A DNA stretch of 42,877 bases from a virus. The notes under the pieces were generated by a model, which worked only from the letters and a program-made list of their open reading frames with translations, was not told the origin of the DNA and searched no databases. Below, in pieces: positions 1,550-42,858 of this stretch. The stretch is taken from the IMG/VR virus record IMGVR_UViG_3300032006_000022, positions 1-42,877 of that record; one strand, written 5' to 3'. Position 1 is the stretch's first letter. The number at the start of each line of letters is the position of its first letter. Position numbers and translations under genes: made by a program.

Positions 1550-3961
1550 ATGATTAAAATCAACTACAATAGTGCTTTTCCTGATCAGGTGGTACCTGAA
1601 GAAGAGAAAAAATCTAGAGAGTATGGACTACAAGTAGCGCAAGCAATTGAGCATGAGTGGTTTAGAAACTCAAGTGGTCAAAACCGCTTTATTAGTAATT
1701 TTCAAAATTTTAATAGATTAAGATTATATGCAAGAGGAGAACAACCAGTTCAAAAATATAAAAATGAATTAGCTATTAACGGTGATTTATCTTATCTTAA
1801 TTTAGATTGGAAACCTGTTCCTATATTATCTAAATTTGTAGATATTGTTGTAAATGGAATGACAGATAAAGGATATGAAATAAAATCCTACGCAACAGAT
1901 CCTTTCGCTACCAAACAAAGAACAAATTATGCAGCTAATGCTTTAAGAGATATTCAAAATAGTGCTGAAATACAGCAATTAAATGAATTAACAGGAAGAA
2001 ACTTTTATTCTTCAGCTGATCCAGAATCACTACCTGAAGATCAAAATGAGTTAGATCTTTATATGCAACTTAATTATAAACAAAGTATAGAAATTGCAGA
2101 AGAAGAAGCAATTAACAATATTTTAGATTATAATAAATATGATGAAATTAAAAAAAGATTAGCTTATGATTTAACTGTTTTAGGAATGGGTTGTGTTAAA
2201 ACTGATTTTAATTTATCAGAAGGAATTACAGTTGATTATGTTAATCCTGCTAATATAGTTTATTCTTATACTGATGATCCTAATTTTGAAGATATATATT
2301 ACGTAGGTGAAGTTAAAAATATGTCATTATCAGAAGTTAAAAGACAATTTCCATGGTTAACCGATAGTGATTTAGAAGAAATACAAAAATATCCAGGAAG
2401 AAATTCTTATGTAGAAAACACATGGTGGGGACAAGAAACTCAAGATCAAGTTCAAGTTTTATATTTTGAATATAAAACATATCAAGATCAAGTTTTTAAA
2501 ATAAAACAAACTGAACAAGGATTAGAAAAAACATTAGAAAAGCCCGATACATTTAATCCGCCACAAAATGATAATTTTGAAAGAGTTTCCAGAGCAATAG
2601 AAGTACTATATTGTGGTGCAAAAGTATTGGGATTAGGAGGTAATTTACTTAAATGGGAATTAAGTGAAAATATGACTAGACCTTATGGAGATACAACTAA
2701 AGTTAATATGAATTATATAATTACAGCTCCTAGAATGTATCAAGGTCGTATTAATTCAATAGTAGAAAAAAGTATTGGATTTGCTGATATGATTCAATTA
2801 ACTCATTTAAAACTCCAACAAGTATTATCTAAAATGGTGCCAGATGGTGTATATTTAGATGTAGATGGATTAGCAGAGGTTGATCTAGGTAATGGTACAA
2901 ATTACAATCCAGCAGAGGCTTTGAATATGTATTTTCAAACAGGAAGTATTGTGGGAAGATCTTTAACCCAAGATGGTGAACTGAATAGAGGAAAAGTACC
3001 AGTTCAAGAATTACAAACTTCAAATGGTATGGGTAAAATTCAATCTATGATTCAAACTTATCAATATTATTTACAAATGATAAGAGATGTCACTGGATTA
3101 AATGAAGCTAGAGATGGTAGCACACCGGCAAAAGATTCGTTAGTTGGTTTACAAAAATTAGCTGCAGCAAACTCTAATACAGCAACCAAACATATATTGC
3201 AGTCGTTAATGTATTTAACTGTTAGGACGTGTGAAAATATTAGTTTGAGGATTTCAGATATGTTACAATTTCCTTTAACTCAACAAAGTTTAATGACCAG
3301 TATTAATACTTTTAATACACATACACTTAAAGAAATAGAAAAATTAAGTTTACATGATTTTGGTATATTTTTAGAATTAGAACCAGAAGAAGAAGATAAA
3401 GCTAATTTAGAACAAAATATTCAAATGGCTTTACAACAACAAAATATAAGTTTAGAAGATGCTATTGATTTAAGAGAAATTAAAAACATAAAACTTGCTA
3501 ATCAAAGTTTAAAAGCTAAACAAAAGAAAAAACAAGAATTAGATAGAGCTCAGCAATTAGAAAATATAGAAGCTCAAGCTGCTGCAAACGCGGAATCTGC
3601 AGAAAAAGCTGCATTAGCTGAAGTACAGAAAAATCAAGCAATGGCAGAAACAGAAATTCAGATTGAACAAGCAAAATCTCAATTTGAAATTGCTAAAATG
3701 GAAAGAGAAGCTGAAATTAAAAAACAACTCATGGCTGAAGAATTTAATTATGATATAGAGTTAGCAAGACTTCAAGGTCAAGTACAAAAACAAAAAGAAG
3801 CTGAAATAGAAAATAGAAAAGACAAAAGAGTTAAAATACAAGGAACACAACAAAGTGAACTTATAGCTCAGCGTCAAAACGATTCGCTACCTAAAGATTT
3901 TGAATCAGCAGGTAATGATAATTTAGATGGTTTTGGATTAGAACAATTTAGTCCATCTTAA
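1550..3961 (+). CDS. Portal protein
   Basis: This would be the dodecameric ring at the capsid vertex through which DNA enters and leaves. It starts directly after the terminase stop, the usual place for a portal. The 803-residue length is at the long end for short-tailed phages. The N-terminal half is mixed alpha/beta, with a segment (LSYLNLDWKPVPILSKFVD) that resembles the portal start region of related marine phages. The last 170 residues or so are a long Ala/Glu/Gln/Lys-rich predicted coiled coil, comparable to the helical barrel seen in long P22-type portals. There is no catalytic motif, and none is expected. The call rests on position, length and overall resemblance. The barrel function of the C-terminal helix is inferred. 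Confidence 0.85.
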   Translation: MIKINYNSAFPDQVVPEEEKKSREYGLQVAQAIEHEWFRNSSGQNRFISNFQNFNRLRLYARGEQPVQKYKNELAINGDLSYLNLDWKPVPILSKFVDIVVNGMTDKGYEIKSYATDPFATKQRTNYAANALRDIQNSAEIQQLNELTGRNFYSSADPESLPEDQNELDLYMQLNYKQSIEIAEEEAINNILDYNKYDEIKKRLAYDLTVLGMGCVKTDFNLSEGITVDYVNPANIVYSYTDDPNFEDIYYVGEVKNMSLSEVKRQFPWLTDSDLEEIQKYPGRNSYVENTWWGQETQDQVQVLYFEYKTYQDQVFKIKQTEQGLEKTLEKPDTFNPPQNDNFERVSRAIEVLYCGAKVLGLGGNLLKWELSENMTRPYGDTTKVNMNYIITAPRMYQGRINSIVEKSIGFADMIQLTHLKLQQVLSKMVPDGVYLDVDGLAEVDLGNGTNYNPAEALNMYFQTGSIVGRSLTQDGELNRGKVPVQELQTSNGMGKIQSMIQTYQYYLQMIRDVTGLNEARDGSTPAKDSLVGLQKLAAANSNTATKHILQSLMYLTVRTCENISLRISDMLQFPLTQQSLMTSINTFNTHTLKEIEKLSLHDFGIFLELEPEEEDKANLEQNIQMALQQQNISLEDAIDLREIKNIKLANQSLKAKQKKKQELDRAQQLENIEAQAAANAESAEKAALAEVQKNQAMAETEIQIEQAKSQFEIAKMEREAEIKKQLMAEEFNYDIELARLQGQVQKQKEAEIENRKDKRVKIQGTQQSELIAQRQNDSLPKDFESAGNDNLDGFGLEQFSPS

Positions 3962-3989
3962 AAATTAATTAATTTTATATTATTATATT

Positions 3990-5279
3990 ATGTCAAAAAA
4001 AGTAGAAGAAACAATAAAAGAAAAAGTATTAGAAAAAGTAGAAGAAGCTAAAGAAACAGTTGAAGCTACTCAAGAAAAACCTACTAAAGAAGAAGGTAGT
4101 TTTAAAATAAAAAAAGTAACTAAACCTAAACAATTAGGTGATGAAAAATTAGTTCCTGATTTAGTTAAAGTAGATTTAAGTAAACCTAAAAAAGAAGAAC
4201 AAGATGCCATTCAAGTCGGAGAAACAAAGGAAGTGGCTGTGGGCGAACAAACCGGAGATAGCGCTCAGGTGGACGAATCGGTATCAAAGTCCAGCGAAGT
4301 TTCTGAAACTCAAGAAGAAAAAATAGAATCGGATTCACCTTTACAAGAAATTACTGATGAAGAAGATAATACTAACGAGACAGGAATGGATGGAAGCACT
4401 GAAACTACCACTGCCTCACAAAAACAAGAAGAAATACAACAGGAAGGAGAAACACAAAAACTTCCTGAAAATATAGAAAATTTAGTAAAATTCATGGAAG
4501 AAACAGGTGGAACTGTTGAAGACTATGCTAGATTAAATGCAGATTATAGTAAAGTAAATGACGAAGTATTATTACATGAATATTACAAACAAGCTAAGCC
4601 TCATTTAAACATGGAAGAAAGAAGCTTTATTATTGAAGATTCTTTTAACTATGATGAAGAGGTGGACGAGGAGCGAGATATAAAAAAGAAAAAACTCGCT
4701 TACAAAGAAGAGATAGCTAAAGCCAAAAACTTTTTAGAAGATCTTAAAAGTAAATATTATGCCGAAATCAAGTTGAGACCCGGTGTAACACAAGAACAAC
4801 AAAAAGCAATGGACTTTTTCAATCGCTATAACGAAGACCAAGCAGCAAACCAAGCTAAACATGAAAGATTTGTATCTAAAACTAAAACACTTTTTAACGA
4901 AGATTTCAAAGGTTTTGATTTTAAATTAGGAGATAAAAAATTTAGATACGGAGTAAAAGATCCTTCAAATGTTGCCGATAATCAAAGTGATATATCCAAT
5001 TTTATTAAGAAGTTTCTTAATAAAGAAGGAGAAATAGTTGATGCACAAGGTTATCATAAAGCTTTATATGCAGCGCGAAATGCTGATACGCTAGCTAATC
5101 ATTTTTATGAGCAAGGTAAAACTGATGCAATTAAAGATCAATTAGCAAAATCTAAAAACATTAGTACTGAACCTAGAAAAACAGCTTCAGGAGAAGTGTT
5201 TGTAGGTGGATTAAAAGTAAAAGCAATTAGTGGACTTGATTCTTCAAAATTAAGAATAAAAAAGAAAACGTTTAATTAA
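3990..5279 (+). CDS. Acidic, probable scaffolding / capsid assembly protein
   Basis: This 429-residue protein sits between portal and capsid, where scaffolding proteins are normally encoded. The first 165 residues or so are low-complexity and rich in Glu, Lys, Thr and Ser (repeated KEE, VEE and TQE runs). Charged helical stretches follow, and the C-terminus is basic (SSKLRIKKKTFN). Acidic, helical, disordered proteins with a basic C-terminal tail are typical of phage scaffolds, where the tail binds the coat protein. No protease motif was seen. A GC-rich patch at about 4201-4320 encodes part of the acidic linker. The scaffold role is inferred from position and composition, not from a recognised domain. 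Confidence 0.6.
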   Translation: MSKKVEETIKEKVLEKVEEAKETVEATQEKPTKEEGSFKIKKVTKPKQLGDEKLVPDLVKVDLSKPKKEEQDAIQVGETKEVAVGEQTGDSAQVDESVSKSSEVSETQEEKIESDSPLQEITDEEDNTNETGMDGSTETTTASQKQEEIQQEGETQKLPENIENLVKFMEETGGTVEDYARLNADYSKVNDEVLLHEYYKQAKPHLNMEERSFIIEDSFNYDEEVDEERDIKKKKLAYKEEIAKAKNFLEDLKSKYYAEIKLRPGVTQEQQKAMDFFNRYNEDQAANQAKHERFVSKTKTLFNEDFKGFDFKLGDKKFRYGVKDPSNVADNQSDISNFIKKFLNKEGEIVDAQGYHKALYAARNADTLANHFYEQGKTDAIKDQLAKSKNISTEPRKTASGEVFVGGLKVKAISGLDSSKLRIKKKTFN

Positions 5280-5298
5280 AAATAAATAATTATCAATT

Positions 5299-6750
5299 AT
5301 GGGTGTATTAACTCCACAATTTGGTTCAATAGTTCCTGCTCCTAATCAGCAGCTATTGGCCAGTAATTACCTATCTTTTACAGATGGTAATAATGATTTT
5401 GCTCAGCAATATCTACCAGAAATATACGAACAAGAAGTAGAGAGATATGGAAATAGAACTCTATCAGGTTTTTTACGTATGGTAGGAGCTGAAATGCCTC
5501 TGACTTCAGATCAAGTTGTTTGGTCAGAGCAAAATAGATTACATATAGCATATGAAAACTGTGTTAACGATCAAGCTAACCCATCTACTATTACCGTACC
5601 TGCTGCAACAGCTCCTGGTGTTACAAGAAATGTAGTATCTCCAGGTCAAACTATTGTAGTTTTAGACGATAATGGTAATGAAGCAAAGTGTGTTGTAACA
5701 GCTTCAGTAACTAATACTGGTGTTATAACTGTTGCTCCTTATTTAAGTACAGATCTAAGCGGTCTAGGTACTTCAGTAAAAATATTTGTTTATGGTTCAG
5801 AATTTATTAAAGGCGCATCAACATCTAATGCAGGTGCTGGAGCTTTAGCTTTAAATAACACTGTACAACCACAAATAACTATTACTCCTGCTTTTCAGCA
5901 ATATAACAATTCACCAATCATCATCAGAAATGTTTATACAATAAATGGTTCTGATATGGCTCAAATTGGTTGGGTTGAAGTTGCAACGGAAGATGGAACT
6001 ACTGGATATTTATGGTATTTAAAAGCTGAATCTGAAACAAGATTAAGATTTGAAGATTACCTAGAAATGGTATGTGTTGAAGGTGAGATCGCTGTTGCGG
6101 CTGCTGGAAATAATGCTGCTGCTTCAGGTTTTAAAGGTACTGAAGGTCTTTTTGCAGCTATCTCATCAAGAGGTAATGTAGAAGTTGGATTCGCTGGAGC
6201 ATCTGGTATAGATGACTTTGATGAAATACTTAAAAACCTAGATACTCAAGGAGCTATTGAAGAAAATATGTTATTCTTACAAAGATCAACTGCGTTAGAA
6301 TTCGACAACATGTTATCTCTAATATCTGCAGGAAGTTCTGGTGGTACTGCTTATGGATTATTTGAAAACTCAGAAGAAATGGCTTTAAATCTTGGATTTA
6401 GCGGTTTCAGAAGAGGATCTTATGATTTCTATAAGACTGACTGGAAATATTTAAATGATGCGTCTACAAGAGGTGCTATCGCTGGAACTCAATCAATAGA
6501 GGGAGTGTTAATACCAGCTGGTACATCTACTGTTTACGATCAAATTTTAGGTACAAATATCAGACGACCATTCTTACACGTTAGATATAGAGCTTCTCAA
6601 ACAGAAGACAGACGTATGAAGTCTTGGTTAACTGGATCAGCTGGAGGTGCTTACACTTCTAATCTTGATGCAATGGAAGTCAACTTCCTTTCAGAAAGAT
6701 GTCTTGTAACTCAAGCTGCTAATAACTTTGTATTATTTAAAGGTATTTAA
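5299..6750 (+). CDS. Major capsid protein (candidate)
   Basis: Probably the shell-forming HK97-fold coat protein. Reasons: 483 residues, a place directly after portal and scaffold, mixed alpha/beta composition with little low complexity, and slightly higher GC and more regular codons than its neighbours, as in the most highly expressed gene. The N-terminal part (NDFAQQYLPEIYEQEVERYG) predicts as a long helix, like the spine or N-arm of coat proteins. A central Gly/Ala/Thr-rich beta region (residues about 90-200) could be an inserted domain. A strong UUCG-capped hairpin follows the stop, as the T-phi terminator follows the coat gene in T7. The identity is based mainly on context. Mass spectrometry of virions would settle it. 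Confidence 0.75.
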   Translation: MGVLTPQFGSIVPAPNQQLLASNYLSFTDGNNDFAQQYLPEIYEQEVERYGNRTLSGFLRMVGAEMPLTSDQVVWSEQNRLHIAYENCVNDQANPSTITVPAATAPGVTRNVVSPGQTIVVLDDNGNEAKCVVTASVTNTGVITVAPYLSTDLSGLGTSVKIFVYGSEFIKGASTSNAGAGALALNNTVQPQITITPAFQQYNNSPIIIRNVYTINGSDMAQIGWVEVATEDGTTGYLWYLKAESETRLRFEDYLEMVCVEGEIAVAAAGNNAAASGFKGTEGLFAAISSRGNVEVGFAGASGIDDFDEILKNLDTQGAIEENMLFLQRSTALEFDNMLSLISAGSSGGTAYGLFENSEEMALNLGFSGFRRGSYDFYKTDWKYLNDASTRGAIAGTQSIEGVLIPAGTSTVYDQILGTNIRRPFLHVRYRASQTEDRRMKSWLTGSAGGAYTSNLDAMEVNFLSERCLVTQAANNFVLFKGI

Positions 6751-7669: not shown

Positions 7670-7680
7670 TCTATATTAAT

Positions 7681-7709
7681 AAGGGAGGCTCTCGGGCCTC
7701 CTTTATTTT
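7681..7709 (+). terminator. Intrinsic terminator
   Basis: A GGAGGC/GCCTCC stem, extended by A-T and G-T pairs (arms 7681-7689 and 7696-7704), closes a TCTCGG loop and runs into TTTATTTTAATA. It has the classic form of a rho-independent terminator. It lies 12 bases after the stop of the preceding gene and 20 bases before the next start, so it separates the head and connector transcription units or attenuates read-through. Confidence 0.75.
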
Positions 7710-7724
7710 AATAAAACAATATAA

Positions 7725-29278: not shown

Positions 29279-29310
29279 AAGGGAGATCGAAAGGTCTCCC
29301 TTCTTTTATT
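29279..29310 (+). terminator. Intrinsic terminator ending the late module
   Basis: A 10-bp stem (arms 29279-29288 and 29293-29302, AAGGGAGATC with GGTCTCCCTT, including one T-G pair) closes a GAAA tetraloop and is followed by CTTTTATT. It lies 50 bases after the endolysin stop, and the T-tract overlaps the last codon of the leftward nrdA gene. It would stop late transcripts from running antisense into the nucleotide metabolism operon. Confidence 0.85.
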
Positions 29311-31027
29311 ATCCATCGCAGCTAACACAACCTGGGTCCATTGCATTAGCAGCAATATCACCTCGTAATACAGACTCAGTTCTCATATAATAAAGTGTTT
29401 TAACGCCTTTTTTCCAAGCATCTATATGAACTTTATTTATCCATTTAGGTGGAGCTTCTGCTGGAAAAGCTAAATTTAAACTAACTGATTGATCTATATA
29501 TTGTTGTCGTATGCCAGCTTGATTTATTAATTCAAGTTGATTTATTTCTTTAAATGTTTTAAAAACGTCTTTAGCCGGTATGTCGTTAGCAAGAACCACA
29601 GAATCAAGTTCATCAATGGCTTGCACCGAACCACCATCCGCCAAAATTTTATCCCAAATTTCATTTGTATTTAATTTATGTTTTCTTAAAAGTTTAACTA
29701 GTGTAGGGTTTTTTCTAATAAAAGTTCCTTTAGCGGATTGTTCAGTAAATACATTAGCCGCCCATGGTTCAATACCTGGTGATACATTACCAGATAATTT
29801 AGAATTACTTACCGTTGGTGCTATAGCTCTTAAATGAGTGTGTCTCATTCCAGTACCTTTGCACCATAAAGGTTCTCCATAAATCTCAGCAAGTTCCATA
29901 CTAGCTCTTTCTGATTCTATTTTTATTTGACTAAATATTCTCCTTGTTTCAAATTGAGCTAACAAACCTTCAAAAGGTAAACCTTTTTCTTGAAGATAAG
30001 TATGCCATCCTAAAACTCCTAAGCCTAATGCTCTACCTTTCTCTGCTGATCTTACAGAATTTTCAAAACCTTTTCTATATTTAGCTTTTTGAATAAACTC
30101 TTCTAATACTCCATCTAAAAACCATATTGAATCATATATAATGTTAGTATTTTTCCACTCTTCATATTTAGCTAAATTTAAACTAGATAAACAACAAACA
30201 AAACTATGAGACTCATCTGTATGTAAAACAATTTCACTACATATATTTGTCATGTGTACTTTTAAAGCATTATCTTTATATGCTGATGGATTTGCTTTAT
30301 TGGTATTACCTTTAAATAAAATATAAGGTTCTCCCGTTGCTTTTCTTTTTTGTAATAACTTACTCCATTTATTTCTTGATACTGAATCACCGGCTTCAAG
30401 TCTTCTCATAAATTTATCTCCTACTACAGCACACTGATGTAAATTAAGTGATTGTCTATTTACATCACCTTTAGGTTCTCTTATTTCTAACCAATCTAAA
30501 AAATCTTTATGTTCTATATTTATATTAACTGATGCTGCTCCGCGTCTAACACTACCTTGATTTGTCGCAAGTATAGTAGAATCATAAATTTTACAAAATG
30601 GTACTACGCCATCTGATGTGCCATTACCAGTTATTTTAGCTCCTGCAGGACGAATCATATTAACACCAATACCCACTCCTCCTCCGTGTTTAGCCAGCAT
30701 CATCATTTCTAAATTCTTTTGACCTATATCATTAATACTATCAGCTACATCAATCCCAAAACAGCTTATGGGTAAACCTCTATCTGTGCCAGTATTAGAT
30801 AAAACTGGAGAAGCTAAACAAAGCCAACCATTCCAAATATATTCAAAAAACCTTTCTGATAATTCGGGTTTATATAAACGTTTTGCAACTGTTTTAGCTA
30901 CTCTTTGATAAGCCTCACGAGGAGTTTCTGTAGGTAATAAATAACCTCCAGTTATAGTTTGTTTATATATATCGTTATTACCCCAAGTAGGATAATCTTC
31001 TCCTTTTACCCAATCGTTATTCCACAT
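29309..31027 (-). CDS. nrdA: Class I ribonucleotide reductase, alpha (catalytic) subunit
   Basis: Reduces ribonucleoside diphosphates to deoxynucleotides together with the beta subunit encoded just upstream. Residues expected of class I alpha are present: C89 in PISCFG and C278/C279 in FVCCLSSLN (the active-site thiol pair), N261/C263/E265 in NICSE, the Tyr pair Y546-Y547 for radical transfer, and a C-terminal CVSC (C567, C570) that is re-reduced by a thioredoxin or glutaredoxin. At 572 residues it is much shorter than bacterial NrdA (about 750) and begins close to the catalytic domain. No ATP-cone is visible, so dATP feedback inhibition through that domain should be absent. ATG overlaps the upstream TAA. 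No intein. Confidence 0.95.
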   Translation of the reverse strand: MWNNDWVKGEDYPTWGNNDIYKQTITGGYLLPTETPREAYQRVAKTVAKRLYKPELSERFFEYIWNGWLCLASPVLSNTGTDRGLPISCFGIDVADSINDIGQKNLEMMMLAKHGGGVGIGVNMIRPAGAKITGNGTSDGVVPFCKIYDSTILATNQGSVRRGAASVNINIEHKDFLDWLEIREPKGDVNRQSLNLHQCAVVGDKFMRRLEAGDSVSRNKWSKLLQKRKATGEPYILFKGNTNKANPSAYKDNALKVHMTNICSEIVLHTDESHSFVCCLSSLNLAKYEEWKNTNIIYDSIWFLDGVLEEFIQKAKYRKGFENSVRSAEKGRALGLGVLGWHTYLQEKGLPFEGLLAQFETRRIFSQIKIESERASMELAEIYGEPLWCKGTGMRHTHLRAIAPTVSNSKLSGNVSPGIEPWAANVFTEQSAKGTFIRKNPTLVKLLRKHKLNTNEIWDKILADGGSVQAIDELDSVVLANDIPAKDVFKTFKEINQLELINQAGIRQQYIDQSVSLNLAFPAEAPPKWINKVHIDAWKKGVKTLYYMRTESVLRGDIAANAMDPGCVSCDG

Positions 31028-31260
31028 TATACTTCTAATTTTTTTTCTTTTTTATCTTTAACAATATCTTTATCTTTTAATTCTTTTATTACTTTATCCC
31101 ATTCTTTTTCCCCCATAAAAGTTTTAAGTGTGGTTAAAGTACCTTGTGCTAAATTTTCTACATTACCTAGATCTTGTATTATTTTACGTAACACATTAGT
31201 AACTGCAGTCATTTGCTTATCTAATTTGTTAAATTTTTCTATTAATTTACTTTCTTTCAT
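31027..31260 (-). CDS. Small coiled-coil protein between nrdB and nrdA
   Basis: A 77-residue, Lys/Glu-rich, mainly helical protein (LIEKFNKLDKQMTAVTNVLR) with a basic C-terminus. No known family. Its start overlaps the upstream stop (ATGA) and its stop overlaps the nrdA start (TAATG), so its translation is coupled to ribonucleotide reductase. It could be a small regulator or simply a passenger. Confidence 0.65.
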   Translation of the reverse strand: MKESKLIEKFNKLDKQMTAVTNVLRKIIQDLGNVENLAQGTLTTLKTFMGEKEWDKVIKELKDKDIVKDKKEKKLEV

Positions 31261-31475
31261 TGTAATATAGTTTTATTTAATATAATTGGTGAAGCATCTT
31301 TATTGTTTTTTACTTCAATATGAGTATCTTTTATAGATATTAAAACGGGTAAATTTTTAGATTTAGTTCTCATTATTTTACCTCGTGTCGTTGGTTCAAG
31401 TACTGTGTATTTTTTAACAAAATGTTTTTTATAATACTTTAAAGCGTATTCTTTTATTTTTTCTATATCATCCAT
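31257..31475 (-). CDS. Hypothetical 72-residue protein
   Basis: A basic protein with a helical N-terminus (MDDIEKIKEYALKYYKKHFV) and a beta-rich remainder (LPVLISIKDTHIEVKNN, SPIILNKT). I do not recognise it. It overlaps the zinc-ribbon membrane gene upstream by 8 bases and the coiled-coil gene downstream by 4 bases, so it is part of the nrdB-nrdA operon. Confidence 0.6.
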   Translation of the reverse strand: MDDIEKIKEYALKYYKKHFVKKYTVLEPTTRGKIMRTKSKNLPVLISIKDTHIEVKNNKDASPIILNKTILQ

Positions 31476-31824
31476 TATATAATAAATAAATTAAGTAACC
31501 AATTGTTACATTTAAATTAACTAAAACTAAATTCCATTGTTTAGCAACCCATACTTGAGGTATACATACAATACCTCCAATAATATATGTAATTGCACCT
31601 ATGTTTCCATATGGTAACAAATATGGACTGATCATTATAAAAGCGGTTCCAAAATATCCAAGTCTATTAGCTATTCTTTCTTTTGCACTAAGTCTTCTAT
31701 CATGAACTAATAATCTTAAAAAAGATCTTTTCCATCTAAACTCACAACGTTTACACGTTTTCTTGTTTATGTGTTTAAACTTTGAATCTTTTTTTTGTTT
31801 ACCGCAAATATTACACGCTCTCAT
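31468..31824 (-). CDS. Zinc-ribbon membrane protein
   Basis: A 118-residue protein with an N-terminal two-CxxC motif (C4, C7, C24, C27: CNICGKQ and TCKRCEF), which should bind one zinc. A basic stretch follows, then about three hydrophobic segments from residue 55 onward (GYFGTAFIMISPYLLPY, AITYIIGGIVCIPQVW, LVLVNLNVTIGYLIYLLY). It begins immediately after the nrdB stop. The zinc ribbon would face the cytoplasm, next to the membrane. Function is unknown; its place inside the ribonucleotide reductase operon is the only clue. Confidence 0.65.
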   Translation of the reverse strand: MRACNICGKQKKDSKFKHINKKTCKRCEFRWKRSFLRLLVHDRRLSAKERIANRLGYFGTAFIMISPYLLPYGNIGAITYIIGGIVCIPQVWVAKQWNLVLVNLNVTIGYLIYLLYNG

Positions 31825-32793
31825 TTACCAAATATCTTCAAAATCTTCACCCTCGTTAGCTTTCGAGTAATCAGTAGGACGAATAGCAAAAAAATCAGTA
31901 TGAGTATGCCCCCCGGTAAGATGGTAGAACCAGTCAAGATTTTTTGCTGCGTTTTCGTCAAAATCAAAGTATTTCCGTTTGTTTGTGTAACCGAGTTCAA
32001 TAATTTTTTCGTTGAGTCTTTTACGGATAAATTGTTTAAGGTCGTAAGCTTTAAGGTTTTCGATATCACCGAGCTCGAACATTTTATCAATGTACTTTTC
32101 TTCGGCTTTAAGCATTGTTTCTGCTGCATCAAATATATCTTTTTTAGATTTGTTTAACAACTTAGGATCTTCTTCACACATATGTCTGAAGAGTTGACAT
32201 CCCATTTTAGAATGAAGAGATTCATCTCTTACACTCCATTTCATTTGTTGCCCTACTCCTTTTAAAAGATTTCTGAGTTGAAAACTATATAAAACAGCAA
32301 AGGCAGAATAAAGACTAACACCTTCAGCAAATGCGCTAAAGATGGCAATGCTTCTTGCAATTCCAGTGGTGTTATTTCCGTCATAACTAATTAAATTATC
32401 AAAGCGTTCCATTGTTGCCTTGTCTTGTAAGAACGCTTCAAAATTTTCCAAACCAAGAGTTTCATTTAAATATGAATAAGCTACTGCATGTATGGTTTCT
32501 TGCGACCCAAATATCATAGCCATTTGTTGTATCTCATGTTTTGGAAACCAAGATACTACTTTTTGTGTCCAATAATCTGATACTGCACATTCTGTCTGAG
32601 CAAAACCTAGTAAGATATTACCTACTAGGTTCTTCTCTTCTTTAGTTAATTTTTCATTCCAATCTTTAACATCGCTAGACATTGGTATTTCTGTATGAAG
32701 CCAAAATGCTTGTGCTTGTTTAAGCCAACCTTCATTATAATATTCTGGATATTCAAAAGGTTTGTAAGGAATTCTTTCATCAAATAAACCCAT
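31825..32793 (-). CDS. nrdB: Class I ribonucleotide reductase, beta (radical-generating) subunit
   Basis: Houses the dinuclear metal centre that makes the radical used by the alpha subunit. Visible ligands are E68 (TEC), E99 and H102 (ETIH), E157 (FAEGVS), and E191 and H194 (ESLH). The radical Tyr is likely Y106, four residues after H102, as in classical beta subunits. The first ligand is Glu where the best-known enzymes have Asp, a feature of class Ic and several phage/marine beta proteins. The acidic C-terminal tail GEDFEDIW should dock to the alpha subunit. 322 residues is normal. ATG overlaps the stop of the upstream lipoprotein gene (TAATG). Confidence 0.94.
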   Translation of the reverse strand: MGLFDERIPYKPFEYPEYYNEGWLKQAQAFWLHTEIPMSSDVKDWNEKLTKEEKNLVGNILLGFAQTECAVSDYWTQKVVSWFPKHEIQQMAMIFGSQETIHAVAYSYLNETLGLENFEAFLQDKATMERFDNLISYDGNNTTGIARSIAIFSAFAEGVSLYSAFAVLYSFQLRNLLKGVGQQMKWSVRDESLHSKMGCQLFRHMCEEDPKLLNKSKKDIFDAAETMLKAEEKYIDKMFELGDIENLKAYDLKQFIRKRLNEKIIELGYTNKRKYFDFDENAAKNLDWFYHLTGGHTHTDFFAIRPTDYSKANEGEDFEDIW

Positions 32794-33086
32794 TATTTTC
32801 TAAACTTTTTTAATTCAAGTGTTTGATTTGTAATTTGTTTTTTAACTATATTTTTTATTTGATTTTTTTTACCATCAAATAAATATTGTCTATATGTTAA
32901 TCTAATCTGAGGGTTGAATTGGTCTAACCCAGATACGTTTTTAGCATCAGATTCCATTATAGTTTTATTTATATGTCCATTGTTATTTAATGGAACATCA
33001 TAAGTAGTTCTTGCTTCTAAAAACAATTGGCTTCCAGAACAAGAACATATTAAAGCTATTAAGCTTATATATAATAATTGTTTCAT
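32793..33086 (-). CDS. Small putative lipoprotein
   Basis: A 97-residue protein with a signal sequence, MKQLLYISLIALICSCSGSQ. The stretch ICSC can serve as a lipobox with C16 lipidated, so the mature product would be anchored in a membrane. The rest is polar, with a basic C-terminal tail. Lipoproteins of this size in phages include outer spanins and superinfection exclusion proteins, but this one lies in the nucleotide metabolism operon, not beside the lysin. It is coupled to nrdB. Function unknown. Confidence 0.6.
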   Translation of the reverse strand: MKQLLYISLIALICSCSGSQLFLEARTTYDVPLNNNGHINKTIMESDAKNVSGLDQFNPQIRLTYRQYLFDGKKNQIKNIVKKQITNQTLELKKFRK

Positions 33087-35495: not shown

Positions 35496-35754
35496 AATAA
35501 TATTTACACATTTGATAGTAAGAATAAGAAAAATTATCTTTAGTATATATATTAGGGGACAAATGAGGAGTTTCACCTTTTTTATATTCCCCAATATTAA
35601 TACCTATTTTCCACACACCTATTTCTCCACTAACTGGTACAGGAAATAGTCTTATATCATTGTCTGTACAATAAATATACCATTTTCTTTCGTCTGAATT
35701 AGGTATGTAATTAGGTATAGGATTGGTTTTCTTTTTTCTGTTTTTTATTCCCAT
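35476..35754 (-). CDS. Hypothetical 92-residue protein
   Basis: Basic N-terminus (MGIKNRKKKTNPIPNY), then a beta-rich, aromatic-rich middle (RKWYIYCTDNDIRLFPVPVS, GVWKIGINIG) and a Tyr-rich end (YSYYQMCKYYYDKREK). No family recognised. It overlaps the primase-helicase gene by 10 bases and the TS-family gene by 20 bases. Confidence 0.6.
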   Translation of the reverse strand: MGIKNRKKKTNPIPNYIPNSDERKWYIYCTDNDIRLFPVPVSGEIGVWKIGINIGEYKKGETPHLSPNIYTKDNFSYSYYQMCKYYYDKREK

Positions 35755-37463
35755 GGCATAATATCATTTATTACTTGTTGATCTTCTTGTGGAATAAAAC
35801 ATCCAGATTTAGGTTCCCATTTAAAATGAGCTTCAGCACCATTTTCACCTAAGTTTTGAAATTTAACTTTCAATACTTTCGCTTTTACTGTTTTAGCCTC
35901 GTAATCTCTATGAACTAAAATCCCGTGATAAGAAGCATCATACCATTCTCCACCGCCTTTTATATTATACATATTAGGTTCTTCAATTTTACCATCTTTA
36001 TCTTTATACATTTTAGTTGGATGAGCAACAATAAAAACTAATACATCAAATTTCTTAGCAAATGTTTCTATTTTTGTTAGATATTCCATTGTATATCTAT
36101 TAACATCATCCGTATTAGAATCTATATCTCTAATCTTATTAAAAGGATCTATAACTAAACATTTAATTCCTTTACGTTTAACAAGTTCAGCTCCTTTTCT
36201 TAATATAGATTCAAGAGTATATCTTTCCATATCTATAAAAAAGAAATTGTCATTCACATGCTCTGCTACTTCGTTCCATTTTTTACTATTAATATCTCCC
36301 GGTGTAGGCATTCCTTGCCATACCTTTCTCATTAATTTATGAGCATGAAGATATGTAGGTTGATTCTCAGGTGATGCAAAAGCTGTTTTCCATTTATAAT
36401 TTAAATTGTACCCGATAACCATTTGATCAACAAAATCAGATTTACCACTAGATGGTATACCAGTAACAGTAATAAACTGACCAGTATAGGTGCTAAAGAT
36501 ACGATCAAAATTCGCCAAACCCACTTGGTAACCTGGTTTGAAACCATGTTTAACAAAGTCTGTAACCTCTCCTTCAATGTCTTTAAACGTTGTAACATTT
36601 TCCAGAGGGACTGGTTTTGCTTTTGTAATTTGCTGGATAAGGTTTTCTTTTCCATGTTTTAATAAATATTCGTTTGCATCTTTACAGTCTTCAAAATCTA
36701 CAGTAAAACAAACTTCAGCTCCAAGGCGTCTTATCAGTTCTTGTTGTAAGGCTTGGCCAGGTTCATCATTATCGACTGCTAAGATTATTTTATCTTTATC
36801 TTCAAAATAATCTATACAATTATCTAAATAATCTAAATTATTTGAATTAAGAGTTGCACCATTTGGTACTGATATAACATTAGGTAATCCAGCTTCATGA
36901 AAACTTAATGCATCCATTTCGCCTTCAACAATTATACAAGTATCATAACCTATAATACTATTAATGTTATAAAATATTTTTTCAGCACCCTTATATAATT
37001 TAAAGTTCTTCTTACCATCTCGATACTTAATATTAATCAAAGTATCACCCATCATGTAATTGAACTTTATCGTATTCTCGGATTTACCGGTTTGTGGCAT
37101 AAATTCTGGACCTTCAGATACTTTTAAATCTTTTAAAGTCTTTTCAGATACACCTCTTGTATTAAACCATTGTACAACCTTTGAACCTGGTTCTGCTAAA
37201 TACATTTTAGGTTCTTCAGTAGGTTTTAAATAAACCTTTTCGCTATTACCTTTACGTTGGTAAGTATGTAATTGAAAAGTTGTGTTACAGTTATGACAAG
37301 TACCGAGACCCCGTTCCCAATCATATGAAGCACATTTAAGCTTTTGATTTTTAGGTTGTCTAGAAGAGGAACACAAAGGACAAGTCCCTTGTGTTTTTCC
37401 TTCCTCTAAACTATATTGATTGAAATTATCAATCAAGAATCCATTGATCTCTGTTGTCTGCAT
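35745..37463 (-). CDS. T7 gp4-like bifunctional primase-helicase
   Basis: Unwinds DNA at the fork and lays down RNA primers. Domains in order: zinc-binding primase finger (C28, C31, C56, C59); TOPRIM primase core with VEGEMDA (E180) and AVDNDEPG (D231, D233); a linker; then a RecA/DnaB-type hexameric helicase with Walker A GIPSSGKS (335-342), Walker B CLVIDPFN and a VAHPTK motif. 572 residues is close to T7 gp4 (566). A second primase is therefore not needed. It lies after the SSB-like gene and before the TS-family gene. No DNA polymerase gene accompanies it in the window, which is unusual for a T7-type set. Confidence 0.94.
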   Translation of the reverse strand: MQTTEINGFLIDNFNQYSLEEGKTQGTCPLCSSSRQPKNQKLKCASYDWERGLGTCHNCNTTFQLHTYQRKGNSEKVYLKPTEEPKMYLAEPGSKVVQWFNTRGVSEKTLKDLKVSEGPEFMPQTGKSENTIKFNYMMGDTLINIKYRDGKKNFKLYKGAEKIFYNINSIIGYDTCIIVEGEMDALSFHEAGLPNVISVPNGATLNSNNLDYLDNCIDYFEDKDKIILAVDNDEPGQALQQELIRRLGAEVCFTVDFEDCKDANEYLLKHGKENLIQQITKAKPVPLENVTTFKDIEGEVTDFVKHGFKPGYQVGLANFDRIFSTYTGQFITVTGIPSSGKSDFVDQMVIGYNLNYKWKTAFASPENQPTYLHAHKLMRKVWQGMPTPGDINSKKWNEVAEHVNDNFFFIDMERYTLESILRKGAELVKRKGIKCLVIDPFNKIRDIDSNTDDVNRYTMEYLTKIETFAKKFDVLVFIVAHPTKMYKDKDGKIEEPNMYNIKGGGEWYDASYHGILVHRDYEAKTVKAKVLKVKFQNLGENGAEAHFKWEPKSGCFIPQEDQQVINDIMPWE

Positions 37464-37485
37464 ATATATATTATCTGCGAATTTT

Positions 37486-37499
37486 CGTATTTAGTTTGT
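37486..37499 (-). repeat. ACAAACTAAATACG element, copy 1
   Basis: A 14-base sequence lying 23 bases before the primase-helicase start, in the short gap after the SSB-like gene. An identical copy is at 42493-42506 and a relative with two extra C at 39272-39287. All are on the leftward strand and directly upstream of a start codon. Confidence 0.45.
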
Positions 37500-37500
37500 A

Positions 37501-38754: not shown

Positions 38755-39270
38755 TTAGAGTGTTGTTAATTCCTTTTCAACTTCTTTAGTTAAAGAGTAC
38801 TTAGCTTTAATTGCATCTATTTTTCCTCCTGATTTAATAAACTGTTTAGCTTTTGCTACTTGATCTGCGCTCATTGCGGTTTTATGATCGTTTACAGCAT
38901 CACTATCTTGTGTATCATCAATTAGAAATAAATTACCTAAAGCATATTTCTTCCCATAACTCGATGCTGACCCAAATTGTTGAGGTGTTTGCATACCTTT
39001 CTGTAATAGATCTACTCCTACTAAAGCTGTTGCTTGAATAGAATTTTCTCCATCAGAAATAGTAGCCATACTTTCAATTACAGGCATAGGTTCACTAGCT
39101 ATTAAATTTTCATTTAATACCACTGTAACTCCTAATTCTAATAAAAAGGGTTTTGTTGCTTCGAGAATGTCTTCGGCTGAGCGGAAGTAATATTTGCCGA
39201 ATGAATTAAATCTACTTTTTTTCGATTTAAATTTAGTCTGAATAGTTGCTAACTTGTCGTTGATATTCAT
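38755..39270 (-). CDS. ERF-family single-strand annealing protein
   Basis: A 171-residue recombinase of the ERF family (P22 Erf). Supporting segments are FGKYYFRSAEDILEATKPFL-type N-terminal signature (residues 25-44), the central GSASSYGKKYALGNLFLIDD, and an acidic/basic helical tail. It anneals complementary ssDNA and acts with the adjacent ExoVIII-type nuclease. At 39272-39287 just before its start lies a copy of the ACAAA...CTAAATAC element seen upstream of two other genes. A 62-base intergenic space separates it from the sigma gene, the widest gap in this module. Confidence 0.9.
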   Translation of the reverse strand: MNINDKLATIQTKFKSKKSRFNSFGKYYFRSAEDILEATKPFLLELGVTVVLNENLIASEPMPVIESMATISDGENSIQATALVGVDLLQKGMQTPQQFGSASSYGKKYALGNLFLIDDTQDSDAVNDHKTAMSADQVAKAKQFIKSGGKIDAIKAKYSLTKEVEKELTTL

Positions 39271-39287: not shown

Positions 39288-39326
39288 CTATTAATATAAT
39301 TACATATAAATTTTAAGATTTACTAC

Positions 39327-39339
39327 CTGTAAGTTACAG
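39327..39339. promoter_or_regulatory. 13-bp palindrome at sigma/ERF boundary
   Basis: CTGTAAGTTACAG is a perfect inverted repeat (6-bp arms around a single G) that overlaps the stop codon of the sigma-factor gene and precedes the ERF gene. It could be an operator for a dimeric DNA-binding protein such as the HTH protein encoded upstream, or it could be chance. No T-tract follows closely, so it is not an obvious terminator. Confidence 0.25.
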
Positions 39340-40086
39340 ATAATCAATCACTTGCGAGTGATCTACATTTTCTATTAATTTTCTTACAGCTTGTTTTTTC
39401 AGCTCTGAAACACGCACATAACTACTAGGTCCTTTAATTCCAATTTTAGGCGCTATATCTTTAGCAGAATGTTTATCACAATCAAGTCCATAAGATAATC
39501 TTAATACTTCGTATTCACTTTCATTTAAATATTTTCTCATTAAACCTTTTAAATAAGTATTTAACAATCCAATATTATAAGGTTCAGAATCATCTGGTAT
39601 TTGATATAACAATTCTTCATCTTGAGTTTGTAATTTAGCATCAATACTCAAAAATATAGAATTAAAAAACATTTCTACCATTTTCTTATCCTTAGGGTTC
39701 TTACGTATTTCGTTCATTTTATGTTCAGGTATACGTATATTACCTCTATTAGTGTCTATAGCTCTTCTTATTGCTCCTTTAATTCTTTTAAAAAAGAAAG
39801 ATTTTAAAGTTTTCTCTTTATCTTTTGAATCCTTCAACATAGTATAATCTAATTTATCTACAGCTTTAGTTAATCCAGCAGATCCTTCTTGGATAAAATC
39901 TAAAACACTCATAACTCCAGCCGCTTGCTGAGAAGTAGAGAATTTTCTAGCTATATTTTCTACTAATGGTAAAAATTTAACTATTAATTCATTACGATCA
40001 TAATCTAATAAATCCTTTTTAATTGGTTGAGAATTTTTTAAATCTTCTTTATACTTAATATAATTTGATATATTATATTTTTTCAT
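39334..40086 (-). CDS. Phage-encoded sigma-70 family factor
   Basis: A 250-residue alternative sigma factor that would redirect host RNA polymerase to phage promoters. Region 2 is clear (residues about 31-120): RNELIVKFLPLVENIARKF, then VLDFIQEGSAGLTKAVDKLD, a near-consensus core-binding segment, then FFFKRIKGAIRRAIDTNRG with IRIPEHK where -10 recognition continues. Region 4 (about 185-240) has LNESEYEVLRLSYGLD, SAKDIAPKIG and a recognition helix SYVRVSELKKQAVRKL. Region 1.1 is absent, and region 3 is reduced. ATG overlaps the TGA of the HTH gene (ATGA). There is no phage RNA polymerase in the window, which fits dependence on the host enzyme. Confidence 0.9.
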   Translation of the reverse strand: MKKYNISNYIKYKEDLKNSQPIKKDLLDYDRNELIVKFLPLVENIARKFSTSQQAAGVMSVLDFIQEGSAGLTKAVDKLDYTMLKDSKDKEKTLKSFFFKRIKGAIRRAIDTNRGNIRIPEHKMNEIRKNPKDKKMVEMFFNSIFLSIDAKLQTQDEELLYQIPDDSEPYNIGLLNTYLKGLMRKYLNESEYEVLRLSYGLDCDKHSAKDIAPKIGIKGPSSYVRVSELKKQAVRKLIENVDHSQVIDYL

Positions 40087-40697
40087 AACATTTTATTTAA
40101 TTGATCTTTTTCTTGTTTTAATTGATTTCCCATTGTTCTGTAAACTGTTCTTGTAGAACATTTTAAAGACTTAGCAATTTTATTCATTGTAATTTTCTTA
40201 CCGAGGTCATTTATATCTAACATGCATTGATAAATATCTTCTTCATAAATAGTTTTACTTCTTCCTACCAATTGTCCTACTATTTTAAGTTTATCTTCTG
40301 TACTTAAATTAGTTTGTTGATTAAATATTACTTTTCTTTTTCTATTAACTGGAGGTTTATCTAATTCATCATCTAATTTATCAAGCATATTTATTAAATA
40401 TTTTTCTTTAATATTAAATGTAATAAAATTATTTTGCTTATTTGTTATAAAATATGCTATATCTTTAAATTTATGATCTTCTAAATCAGGATTTAAGTAT
40501 CTTAGGACTAACAAATGCCATTTTAATGATTTAAAACTACTTATTTTAGCTTTACTTTTAAATAATTCATAACATTCGAAAGTCCCATATTTATAATACT
40601 TTCCCCAATGATAAACTTGTGTTGGTATATCATTTATTGGATCTCTATTGTATATAATTCTATTTCGATTTAAATAATCGATCCGTCTTTGTGACAT
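40083..40697 (-). CDS. Helix-turn-helix DNA-binding protein upstream of sigma factor
   Basis: A 204-residue basic protein. Residues about 168-190 (KITMNKIAKSLKCSTRTVYR) form a standard helix-turn-helix with a recognition helix starting at STRTVY. The N-terminal 110 residues are aromatic and Lys-rich, partly helical, with no recognised family. Its stop overlaps the sigma-factor start by 4 bases, so equal expression of both is likely. It could be a repressor/activator of phage promoters, a co-factor or anti-sigma-like partner of the sigma protein, or a replication initiator. The HTH is seen; the role is inferred. Confidence 0.7.
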   Translation of the reverse strand: MSQRRIDYLNRNRIIYNRDPINDIPTQVYHWGKYYKYGTFECYELFKSKAKISSFKSLKWHLLVLRYLNPDLEDHKFKDIAYFITNKQNNFITFNIKEKYLINMLDKLDDELDKPPVNRKRKVIFNQQTNLSTEDKLKIVGQLVGRSKTIYEEDIYQCMLDINDLGKKITMNKIAKSLKCSTRTVYRTMGNQLKQEKDQLNKML

Positions 40698-40735
40698 TAG
40701 CTTGTTATTCTATTATATATTATTACCTATTGTCA

Positions 40736-41036: not shown

Positions 41037-41295
41037 CGCTTAAATATTTTTGATATAATATAAATGTAATTATTTTTAATATTGTTCCAAGCATTATACC
41101 CATCATCATTTGTATCTTTGTTGTTCCAATAGCATAAAACATATATACTATAAAACCATCAAATAATAACATACATGTTACAGGTATAATGATTACTTTT
41201 TTTATCCAGTCTCCTACTAAGGCTACCATATAACCGCTTAAAGCCATAATAAGAGACATAAAGAAGGGTATTATTAAATCTAATAAACTACTCAT
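41029..41295 (-). CDS. Small polytopic membrane protein
   Basis: An 88-residue protein, almost all hydrophobic, with about three helices (LLDLIIPFFMSLIMALSGYM, VIIIPVTCMLLFDGFIVYMF and MMGIMLGTILKIITFILYQ). It overlaps the ligase gene by 8 bases. Being in the leftward, probably early module, it may act on the host membrane (for example in superinfection exclusion) rather than in lysis. That is speculation from position. Confidence 0.65.
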   Translation of the reverse strand: MSSLLDLIIPFFMSLIMALSGYMVALVGDWIKKVIIIPVTCMLLFDGFIVYMFYAIGTTKIQMMMGIMLGTILKIITFILYQKYLSDE

Positions 41296-42121
41296 AATTT
41301 CTTATACATTTAAATAGAGGATGTCTATATGATCCAGATGGAGTCTTTTGGAAATATGTAAAGGTAGCGGTTTTACCAATATACCAATCTGCTATATCAT
41401 ACATTTTTTCCATTATTTTATAATCATCCATAATAGGCATCCCAAAAGTGATCCCATTACTATCAATAGCCAAGAATTTTCCAATTGTCCCAGTTCTTTT
41501 CCCTTGACCTTCAACCCATCCTGTAATTTTTGCTTCAGAATCTTGAAAGTCTTTAAATTTTTGTAAGTTATAACTTCTTTTTTGTTCATAGGGTTTATTT
41601 AGTCTTATTATACTACCTTCATAACCTTGTTTTAGGAAATCTTCATGCCAAAGTTTAGCCGATTCAATTATCGACACATCATGAGTTGGTACCTCAACTA
41701 TATGTCTTGATTTTAATTCATTAATTTTACTTTTAATATTTTCATTTCTTATTTTAAAAGGATAATTATGAATATCAGAATAATAATCGTACCAATGAAA
41801 CTGAATATAACGAGTTGCCTCATCTATTTCTTGAGCATTGGGCTTTTGTTTTCTCACAAGGGATATAATTTTATTGAAATTATCTTTAAATTGGTGATTA
41901 TATAATTCACCATCAACCACAAGATCTGGGTTGGTTTTAAATAAAGGTTTAAATGCATCTTTAATATGATCTACAGTTTTAAACTCTTTATGATTACGGC
42001 TGAAAGCACCGTCTTTTGTTATATAGCATCTAACCCCATCAAGTTTTGGTTGAATAAAAGAATCTGTATTAAATTCTTTTTTACCATAAGGGTGAGCTAG
42101 CATTACTTTAAAGTCACTCAT
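41288..42121 (-). CDS. ATP-dependent DNA ligase
   Basis: Seals nicks between Okazaki fragments and after recombination. The 277-residue length fits a minimal phage ligase with nucleotidyltransferase and OB domains only. Motif I is QPKLDGVR with K26 as the adenylated lysine. Motif III-like VDGELY, motif IV EGSIIR and motif V KFKDF follow in order, and the end carries an OB-fold region (GWVEGQGKRTGTIG). No zinc finger, BRCT or NAD-binding domain. Its ATG overlaps the stop of the UVR-like gene (ATGA). Confidence 0.93.
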   Translation of the reverse strand: MSDFKVMLAHPYGKKEFNTDSFIQPKLDGVRCYITKDGAFSRNHKEFKTVDHIKDAFKPLFKTNPDLVVDGELYNHQFKDNFNKIISLVRKQKPNAQEIDEATRYIQFHWYDYYSDIHNYPFKIRNENIKSKINELKSRHIVEVPTHDVSIIESAKLWHEDFLKQGYEGSIIRLNKPYEQKRSYNLQKFKDFQDSEAKITGWVEGQGKRTGTIGKFLAIDSNGITFGMPIMDDYKIMEKMYDIADWYIGKTATFTYFQKTPSGSYRHPLFKCIRNYE

Positions 42122-42363: not shown

Positions 42364-42485
42364 TAATAAATATTTAATTTTCTAGGATTTTCTAAAAAAT
42401 AAGAAATATCAGATTGTCTTTCTTCTAACACTTCTATTCTTTCTATTAATTCTTTTATTTTATTATTTATATCTATATTATCCAT
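42363..42485 (-). CDS. 40-residue coiled-coil peptide
   Basis: The frame starts MDNIDINNKIKELIERIEVL and continues EERQSDISYFLENPRKLNIY. Heptad-like hydrophobic spacing suggests a short coiled coil. The stop overlaps the next ATG (TAATG), and the start lies one base beyond the stop of the upstream gene, so the fit between neighbours is exact. Function unknown; it may form a pair with the UVR-like helical protein encoded next. Confidence 0.6.
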   Translation of the reverse strand: MDNIDINNKIKELIERIEVLEERQSDISYFLENPRKLNIY

Positions 42486-42486
42486 T

Positions 42487-42858
42487 CTAAACCGTATTTA
42501 GTTTGTGATCTTTTATTTCATACTTTTTAATTAATTCATCAGGTGTACCTACAAACATAACGTATTTATTATATACATCATAAATAGATATGTAAGTTGG
42601 TTCACCTTCTTTAGGATAAAGAGTGTAAATATATTCTTCCCAGTGATCTCCTAACTCACCATTACACTCATGTAGATAAGTATATCCTACATCTTTTTTA
42701 AATTCCTGCACTATCTGAGCTGCTAAACAACCCGGACCATTAGCATATTTACCTATTTTAACTGAACCTGAAATACCATTTATTATTTTAATTGGTTTTA
42801 CAAACTCAGCTAATTTAACACCTACATAAGATGGATAACCATCATATTGTTGGTACAT
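42487..42858 (-). CDS. Conserved phage protein, first leftward gene in window
   Basis: A 123-residue protein beginning MYQQYDGYPSYVGVKLAEFV. A Gly-rich centre (KYANGPGCLAAQIVQEFKKD) and aromatic strands (WEEYIYTLYP, YISIYDVYNKYVMFVG) follow. I recall a family of the same shape (a 'W/YDGYP ... GCLAAQ' protein) in other marine and enterobacterial phages, annotated only as hypothetical. No catalytic motif is evident. Upstream sequence to the window end (about 19 bases) is A/T-rich and too short to show a promoter. Confidence 0.7.
   Translation of the reverse strand: MYQQYDGYPSYVGVKLAEFVKPIKIINGISGSVKIGKYANGPGCLAAQIVQEFKKDVGYTYLHECNGELGDHWEEYIYTLYPKEGEPTYISIYDVYNKYVMFVGTPDELIKKYEIKDHKLNTV
42493..42506 (-). 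repeat. ACAAACTAAATACG element, copy 2
   Basis: Identical to copy 1. It overlaps the last codons of the first leftward gene and ends 7 bases before the start of the 40-residue coiled-coil gene. Confidence 0.45.

Follow-up and report, generated by a model that had tools for sequence, protein, structure and literature searches.

A sigma-70 factor and an adjacent helix-turn-helix protein as a putative transcription-switch module in uncultured marine short-tailed viruses

The window, i.e., the whole stretch of viral DNA analysed here (42,877 bp), is a fragment; it covers ~61% of a podovirus genome that is ~70.5 kb long and circularly permuted. A complete genome was ruled out by the terminase, which is cut at the left end of the window, and by a longer permuted copy of the same virus (the 70,473-bp record G001; about 94-99% identity across most aligning stretches), whose two ends are joined by the right end of the window. 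The 27.6 kb absent from the window carry GroEL/GroES-like genes, large fibre-like proteins and small early ORFs (read by eye). Other landmarks include the genes for both subunits of ribonucleotide reductase, large and small, where the early/middle block ends (window 29309-33086), a tRNA-like gene in the early region (G001 69082-69160, by eye) and, between two late genes at about 7675-7710 of the window, a strong hairpin (GGGAGGCTCTCGGGCCTCC) followed by T-rich DNA, which resembles an intrinsic terminator. The features at the locus under study are the following.

35745-37463, minus strand: DNA primase/helicase gene (phrog_239, 1.6e-87), downstream of a class-M element
37469-37500, minus strand: class-M promoter-like element TACAAACTAAATACGA..AGATAATA, upstream of the primase/helicase gene
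38755-39270, minus strand: 171-aa gene, the first after sigma and directly downstream of the class-L element; presumably ERF-like, from a reading of its sequence and not from a profile match
39295-39324, minus strand: class-L promoter-like element AGTAAA-N14-TGTAATTATA, between sigma and the next gene
39334-40086, minus strand: sigma-70 family factor of 250 aa, with regions 2, 3.2 and 4 and profile matches
40083-40697, minus strand: HTH protein of 204 aa, with a C-terminal helix-turn-helix at about 165-190 and an N-terminal domain without known fold
40692-40735, no strand assigned: inverted repeat TGACAATAGGTAATAATATATAATAGAATAACAAGCTAATGTCA, an operator candidate whose right arm overlaps the HTH start codon (ATGTCA = Met-Ser)
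41288-42121, minus strand: ATP-dependent DNA ligase gene (phrog_114, 1.1e-67), in the gene string shared with HTH and sigma
42476-42507, minus strand: class-M promoter-like element CACAAACTAAATACGG..GGATAATA, upstream of the string running from ligase to HTH and sigma

An earlier note on this DNA had described a small sigma factor with regions 2 and 4, and this description is borne out by profile searches of the protein and of 42 relatives. Taken singly, the protein matches the Pfam profile Sigma70_r2 above the cut-off (E=1.4e-5) and region 4 at E=0.04, while among the relatives region 2 was detected in 42/42 and region 4 in 37/42 (best 6.5e-7). The sigma factor family PHROG_351 is matched at 2e-24, and TIGR02937 of NCBIfam above its cut-off (E=8.8e-16) over residues 31-239. 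Region 2 lies at about 34-113 and region 4 at about 187-240; IRIPEHK at about 118-124 is region 3.0-like and the acidic stretch SIDA..DEELLYQIPDDSEPYN at 147-171 is sigma-finger-like (both by eye), and no region 1.1/1.2 was seen in the 250 residues. The predicted model (pLDDT 78) finds sigma chains as its best PDB matches. Judged from profiles and the model, the protein is a genuine sigma-70 factor. IMG/VR contains at least 555 stretches with a gene for a relative, and it is a large family of uncultured marine short-tailed viruses that bears the sigma-HTH module. A 66.4-kb record (G067, contig of L144) holds two full-length sigma matches with unequal scores (3695-4444 and 64909-65658), and in G064 (contig of L140; 55767-56520) several stop codons break the homologue, owing to either sequencing error or decay of the gene.

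For the HTH protein, Pfam matches of the single sequence are weak (HTH_22, 7.6e-4; HTH_11, 9.4e-4), while HTH_11 matches 31 of the 32 members of its family (best 6e-7). Its model reaches pLDDT 89 and has one similar viral model (A0A516MIB4); no fold match in the PDB was significant. Kinship with sigma was considered and rejected on the same PDB comparison and on a profile comparison probability of 0.1%. The two genes are closely linked: an HTH homologue lies just upstream of sigma in 84/87 loci. In the window both ORFs occupy the positions given above and, as had been claimed, the start of sigma overlaps the stop of the HTH gene in an ATGA on the minus strand. This coupling is true of the window but not general, with junctions varying from a 4-nt overlap (15 loci) to a 14-nt overlap (37 loci) or a gap (about 20). 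The conserved feature is the adjacency of the HTH and sigma genes, not the exact ATGA overlap.

The virus had further been described as short-tailed without a visible RNA polymerase. Since the window is a fragment, this absence was assessed in 32 near-complete records, nearly all of 60-80 kb (the near-complete copy of the window virus, G001, and 31 relatives). The PF00940 profile for T7-type RNA polymerase found no match in any of them, while the T7 control scored 1e-110; the claim thus holds in the window and, for the T7-type enzyme, in the 32 records.

By portal, the nearest named phages are Elemovirus, Callevirus (Pervagoviridae), Maribacter phage Panino and the Pachyviridae, and portal matches are restricted to phages of Flavobacterium, Cellulophaga, Tenacibaculum and Maribacter together with one environmental record. 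Shine-Dalgarno-like sequences precede just 52/1147 genes, a scarcity that recalls Bacteroidota, which lack such sequences (PMC6847099). The hosts are probably Bacteroidota. Assignment of a host from genome contigs failed, as sigma turned up only on MAG contigs, which are binned to very different phyla. Promoters of Flavobacteria carry TTTG and TAnnTTTG (PMC6847099, PMC9723704). Within intergenic DNA, the TAnnTTTG box is over-represented in four sigma-less relatives (45 vs 26.2+-4.6; full pairs 7 vs 1.0) and under-represented in 19 sigma-bearing genomes (56 vs 85.8+-8.2, with full pairs at 4 vs 4.0), a comparison that rests on the Flavobacteria consensus, from which the hosts of the sigma-bearing lineage may simply differ. 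Bacteroidota sigma-A promoters are not enriched in the sigma-bearing viruses, and the lineage seems to have left the host promoter class. E. coli-type promoters were also considered and set aside as too weak (44 seen vs 36.5 expected in intergenic DNA).

Two classes of virus-specific promoter-like elements were found. Class M (consensus TACAAAC-N18-GATAATA, fixed 18-bp spacing) emerged from inspection of early intergenic DNA as TACAAACTAAATACGA-N8-(A/G)GATAATATA with constant spacing, and some lineages retain just ACAAAC-N18-GATAATA. It is essentially confined to the early strand: with up to one mismatch, the sigma loci hold 180 non-redundant matches on the sigma strand vs 2 on the opposite one, and a weight matrix gives 229 vs 1, of which the strand bias is the meaningful part as the matrix derives from the same matches. 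Most complete genomes carry 5-9 sites, nearly all on the early strand. At zero mismatches, M is absent from six sigma-less relatives and from T7, while viral contigs of at least 54 kb picked blind by M alone encoded sigma in 17/17 cases. As a chromosomal promoter of the MAGs tested M is unsupported, with no match in three of six bacterial genomes and matches on few contigs in the other three. The base before GATAATA (-13) is uniform within genomes and variable between them; its covariation with sigma or HTH residues was no better than with two control proteins and is not informative on the class that sigma reads. In 73 of the 180 sites, the first ATG stands exactly 10 or 12 nt past the G of GATAAT (e.g., window 37469-37500). 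If GATAAT is a -10 box, many start codons would coincide with the expected transcription start and the mRNAs would therefore be nearly leaderless; such mRNAs are rare in flavobacteria (5.5%; PMC9723704).

Class L (consensus TGTAAA-N14-TGTAATTATA) occupies sites behind sigma and before the late operon. With up to 4 mismatches allowed, it is present (as TGTAAA or similar) in the short gap behind sigma in 63/69 loci, where no inverted repeat adjoins it. On the opposite strand, an L-like element also stands before the first late ORF, and further elements lie before a ~95-aa gene preceding GroEL and before a distal late gene. The -10 part of L is nearly invariant, as are the DNA-reading segments of sigma. 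Contigs picked by L alone carried sigma in 25/27 cases; the remaining two were rejected as lineage members, being unrelated phages with one chance L site each.

The third element is an inverted repeat of about 43 bp (TGACAATAGCC...GGCTAATGTCA), which occurs essentially twice per genome: one copy covers the start codon of the HTH gene, and the other lies in the divergent region, shortly before the late L element. Strict sites number 30 in 19 genomes against 1.6 expected in Markov sequence, and nearly all lie at these two places. Of 77 loci, 68 have the repeat at the HTH start. Coding does not account for it, since loci whose start codon is GTG or TTG (L005, L041, L061) retain the TGTCA arm, and in L031 and L042 an arm lies about 40 nt upstream of the start. 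At the late promoter it is present in about 27 of 39 genomes, ending 2-28 bp before L in most and at 7 bp in many; phasing of these distances is no more than suggestive (Rayleigh p=0.04 on distinct distances). The 50-kb record G042 (L033), the sole HTH-less genome examined, encodes sigma and lacks the canonical repeat at its late promoter, while G048 carries the same unusual arm (GCGAC / GTCGC) at both sites. These genomes, two cases only, suggest that it is the HTH protein that reads the repeat. Clusters of TGACA/TGTCA unlike the repeat at the HTH start were also seen near the first early promoter (G001 67245-67287, G003 5186-5358, G042 36590-36623, G008 about 13800) and are possibly sites of another regulator. 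A GC-rich conserved stretch (AGATATATAGGAGTATGGGGTTACCCCC..., G001 66808-67427, early orientation), which could be a terminator, an origin or a packaging signal, separates the late repeat from the first M site and recurs at the same region in G009, G010, G019, G033 and G038.

Taken together, these elements suggest, with somewhat better than even confidence in the full reading, that the sigma-HTH pair is a transcription-switch module of a podovirus lineage without T7-type RNA polymerase. Sigma would bind the host core polymerase and direct the host enzyme to virus promoters. The HTH protein would bind the inverted repeat, thereby limiting its own synthesis and perhaps that of sigma, and, from its site 2-28 bp upstream of late L, would gate the ~53-kb late operon, probably by helping polymerase. 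Early genes would be driven by M promoters or, at the onset of infection, by promoters that the host reads and that escaped recognition in this analysis. The redirection of host polymerase proposed in the earlier note is consistent with the sigma-70 factor, the lack of a T7-type polymerase, the conserved pair and the virus-specific promoter-like elements. Its view of the HTH protein as a possible co-regulator would, on the best reading, be changed to that of a DNA-binding regulator of its own gene and the late promoter, contact with sigma or polymerase being conjectural.

As the target of sigma, class L is the likelier choice by a modest preference, given its sites behind sigma and ahead of the late genes, its near-invariant -10 part and the precedent of phiEco32 and 7-11. 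Class M, to which we give somewhat less than an even chance, is possible as the target because it is the more numerous class and is equally tied to sigma-bearing viruses. Either choice would carry a cost: a sigma factor reading L only would need another reader for M, yet M is unlike the Bacteroidota sigma-A promoter, while one reading M would leave the sigma gene needing another promoter at the start of infection. A scheme built on the latter choice, in which sigma reads the many M promoters including that of its own operon (positive feedback) while late L is read by another holoenzyme with HTH activating, is a rather unlikely competitor. The clean two-part form of M, its 18-bp spacing, its 5-9 copies per genome, its strict strand specificity and its confinement to sigma-bearing viruses all favour it. 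Nevertheless, M sites precede genes expected before sigma, and M varies by lineage (in the -13 base, the TACGA part and ACAAAC/ACAGAC) whereas the DNA-reading segments of sigma hardly vary.

The position of the repeat bears on a second, still less probable explanation, by which the HTH protein simply represses its own operon and the late promoter, being co-transcribed with sigma but sharing no joint function with it. An operator over the gene's own start codon is the classic autorepressor position, and gaps part the two genes in about 20 loci; however, the late repeat lies 2-28 bp upstream of L and not over it, a better fit to an activator. It is improbable that M and L are read by the real host's own sigma factors, differing from the Flavobacteria consensus, with the phage sigma playing a minor part. 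Uniformity of the M -13 base within genomes and its variability between them would be expected with differing hosts, but M and L are confined to sigma-bearing viruses and no chromosomal class was seen in the MAG genomes tested. Early transcription by a virion-packaged RNA polymerase inside the giant 1849- or 2598-aa structural proteins is very improbable: N4-like phages do encode such giant proteins and the 2598-aa protein has no PHROG match, but neither protein has a D-x-D-x-D or DxDG motif, the 1849-aa protein matches a virion structural PHROG and the PF00940 search was negative.

The preferred reading, in which the pair switches host polymerase towards virus promoters, could be carried a step further. 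Even the early genes may use virus-specific M, with sigma or a virion-borne factor retargeting polymerase from the first minutes and the HTH repeat acting as an early-to-late timer; this extension is speculative and, on balance, unlikely. If true, the lineage gave up the host primary promoter class altogether. The module is present in hundreds of uncultured viruses, and the M, L and operator sequences allow the scheme to be tested directly on short DNA templates. Furthermore, a sigma factor overriding the unusual Bacteroidota promoter would serve as an orthogonal expression tool in Bacteroidota.

Among T4-, SPO1- and phiEco32-type phages, sigma factors of the phage's own are well documented; the literature search found no paper on one in Bacteroidota phages. 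Unlike the T7-like Autographiviridae, the present lineage lacks PF00940 in its 32 near-complete records. It resembles the Pervagoviridae (Callevirus phi38:1), Elemovirus, Panino and the Pachyviridae in its portal (25-50% identity over most of the length) and in late gene order, with GroEL/ES genes in several; no sigma or HTH homologue was detectable in the six named relatives of this group tested and, unlike the present lineage, four of them, taken together, show host-type promoters. In T4 late transcription, the sigma factor is gp55, which has no -35-reading domain; gp33 binds the beta flap but does not read DNA, and gp45 serves as the clamp (PMC2988020). The proposed scheme likewise pairs a phage sigma with a second factor for late genes, but here region 4 is retained in sigma, the partner has an HTH and the genes are adjacent, T4's being far apart. 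Closest in strategy are phiEco32 (phi32_gp36 sigma and phi32_gp79) and Salmonella phage 7-11 (SaPh711_gp47), podoviruses that encode a sigma factor but no polymerase of their own, in which the phage sigma reads middle/late promoters and the late promoters have a virus-specific consensus (tAATGTAtA; GTAAtg-(16)-aCTA) (PMC8948821). The use of an own sigma without an own polymerase is thus already known (PMC8948821), and the likeness extends to reliance on host RNA polymerase, to late genes running opposite in direction to early/middle genes and, in phiEco32, to a second small regulator besides sigma (gp79 there, the HTH protein here). Virion genes related to those of phiEco32-like podoviruses were not found; the head genes, including the portal, match Bacteroidota podoviruses instead of enterobacterial ones, and the promoter sequences differ. 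Unlike phiEco32 and 7-11, the present lineage has an HTH partner with its own operator candidate in place of gp79 and two virus promoter-like classes; as far as the literature was searched, this host group, the HTH partner with a shared operator candidate and the two element classes are undescribed features of an otherwise known strategy.
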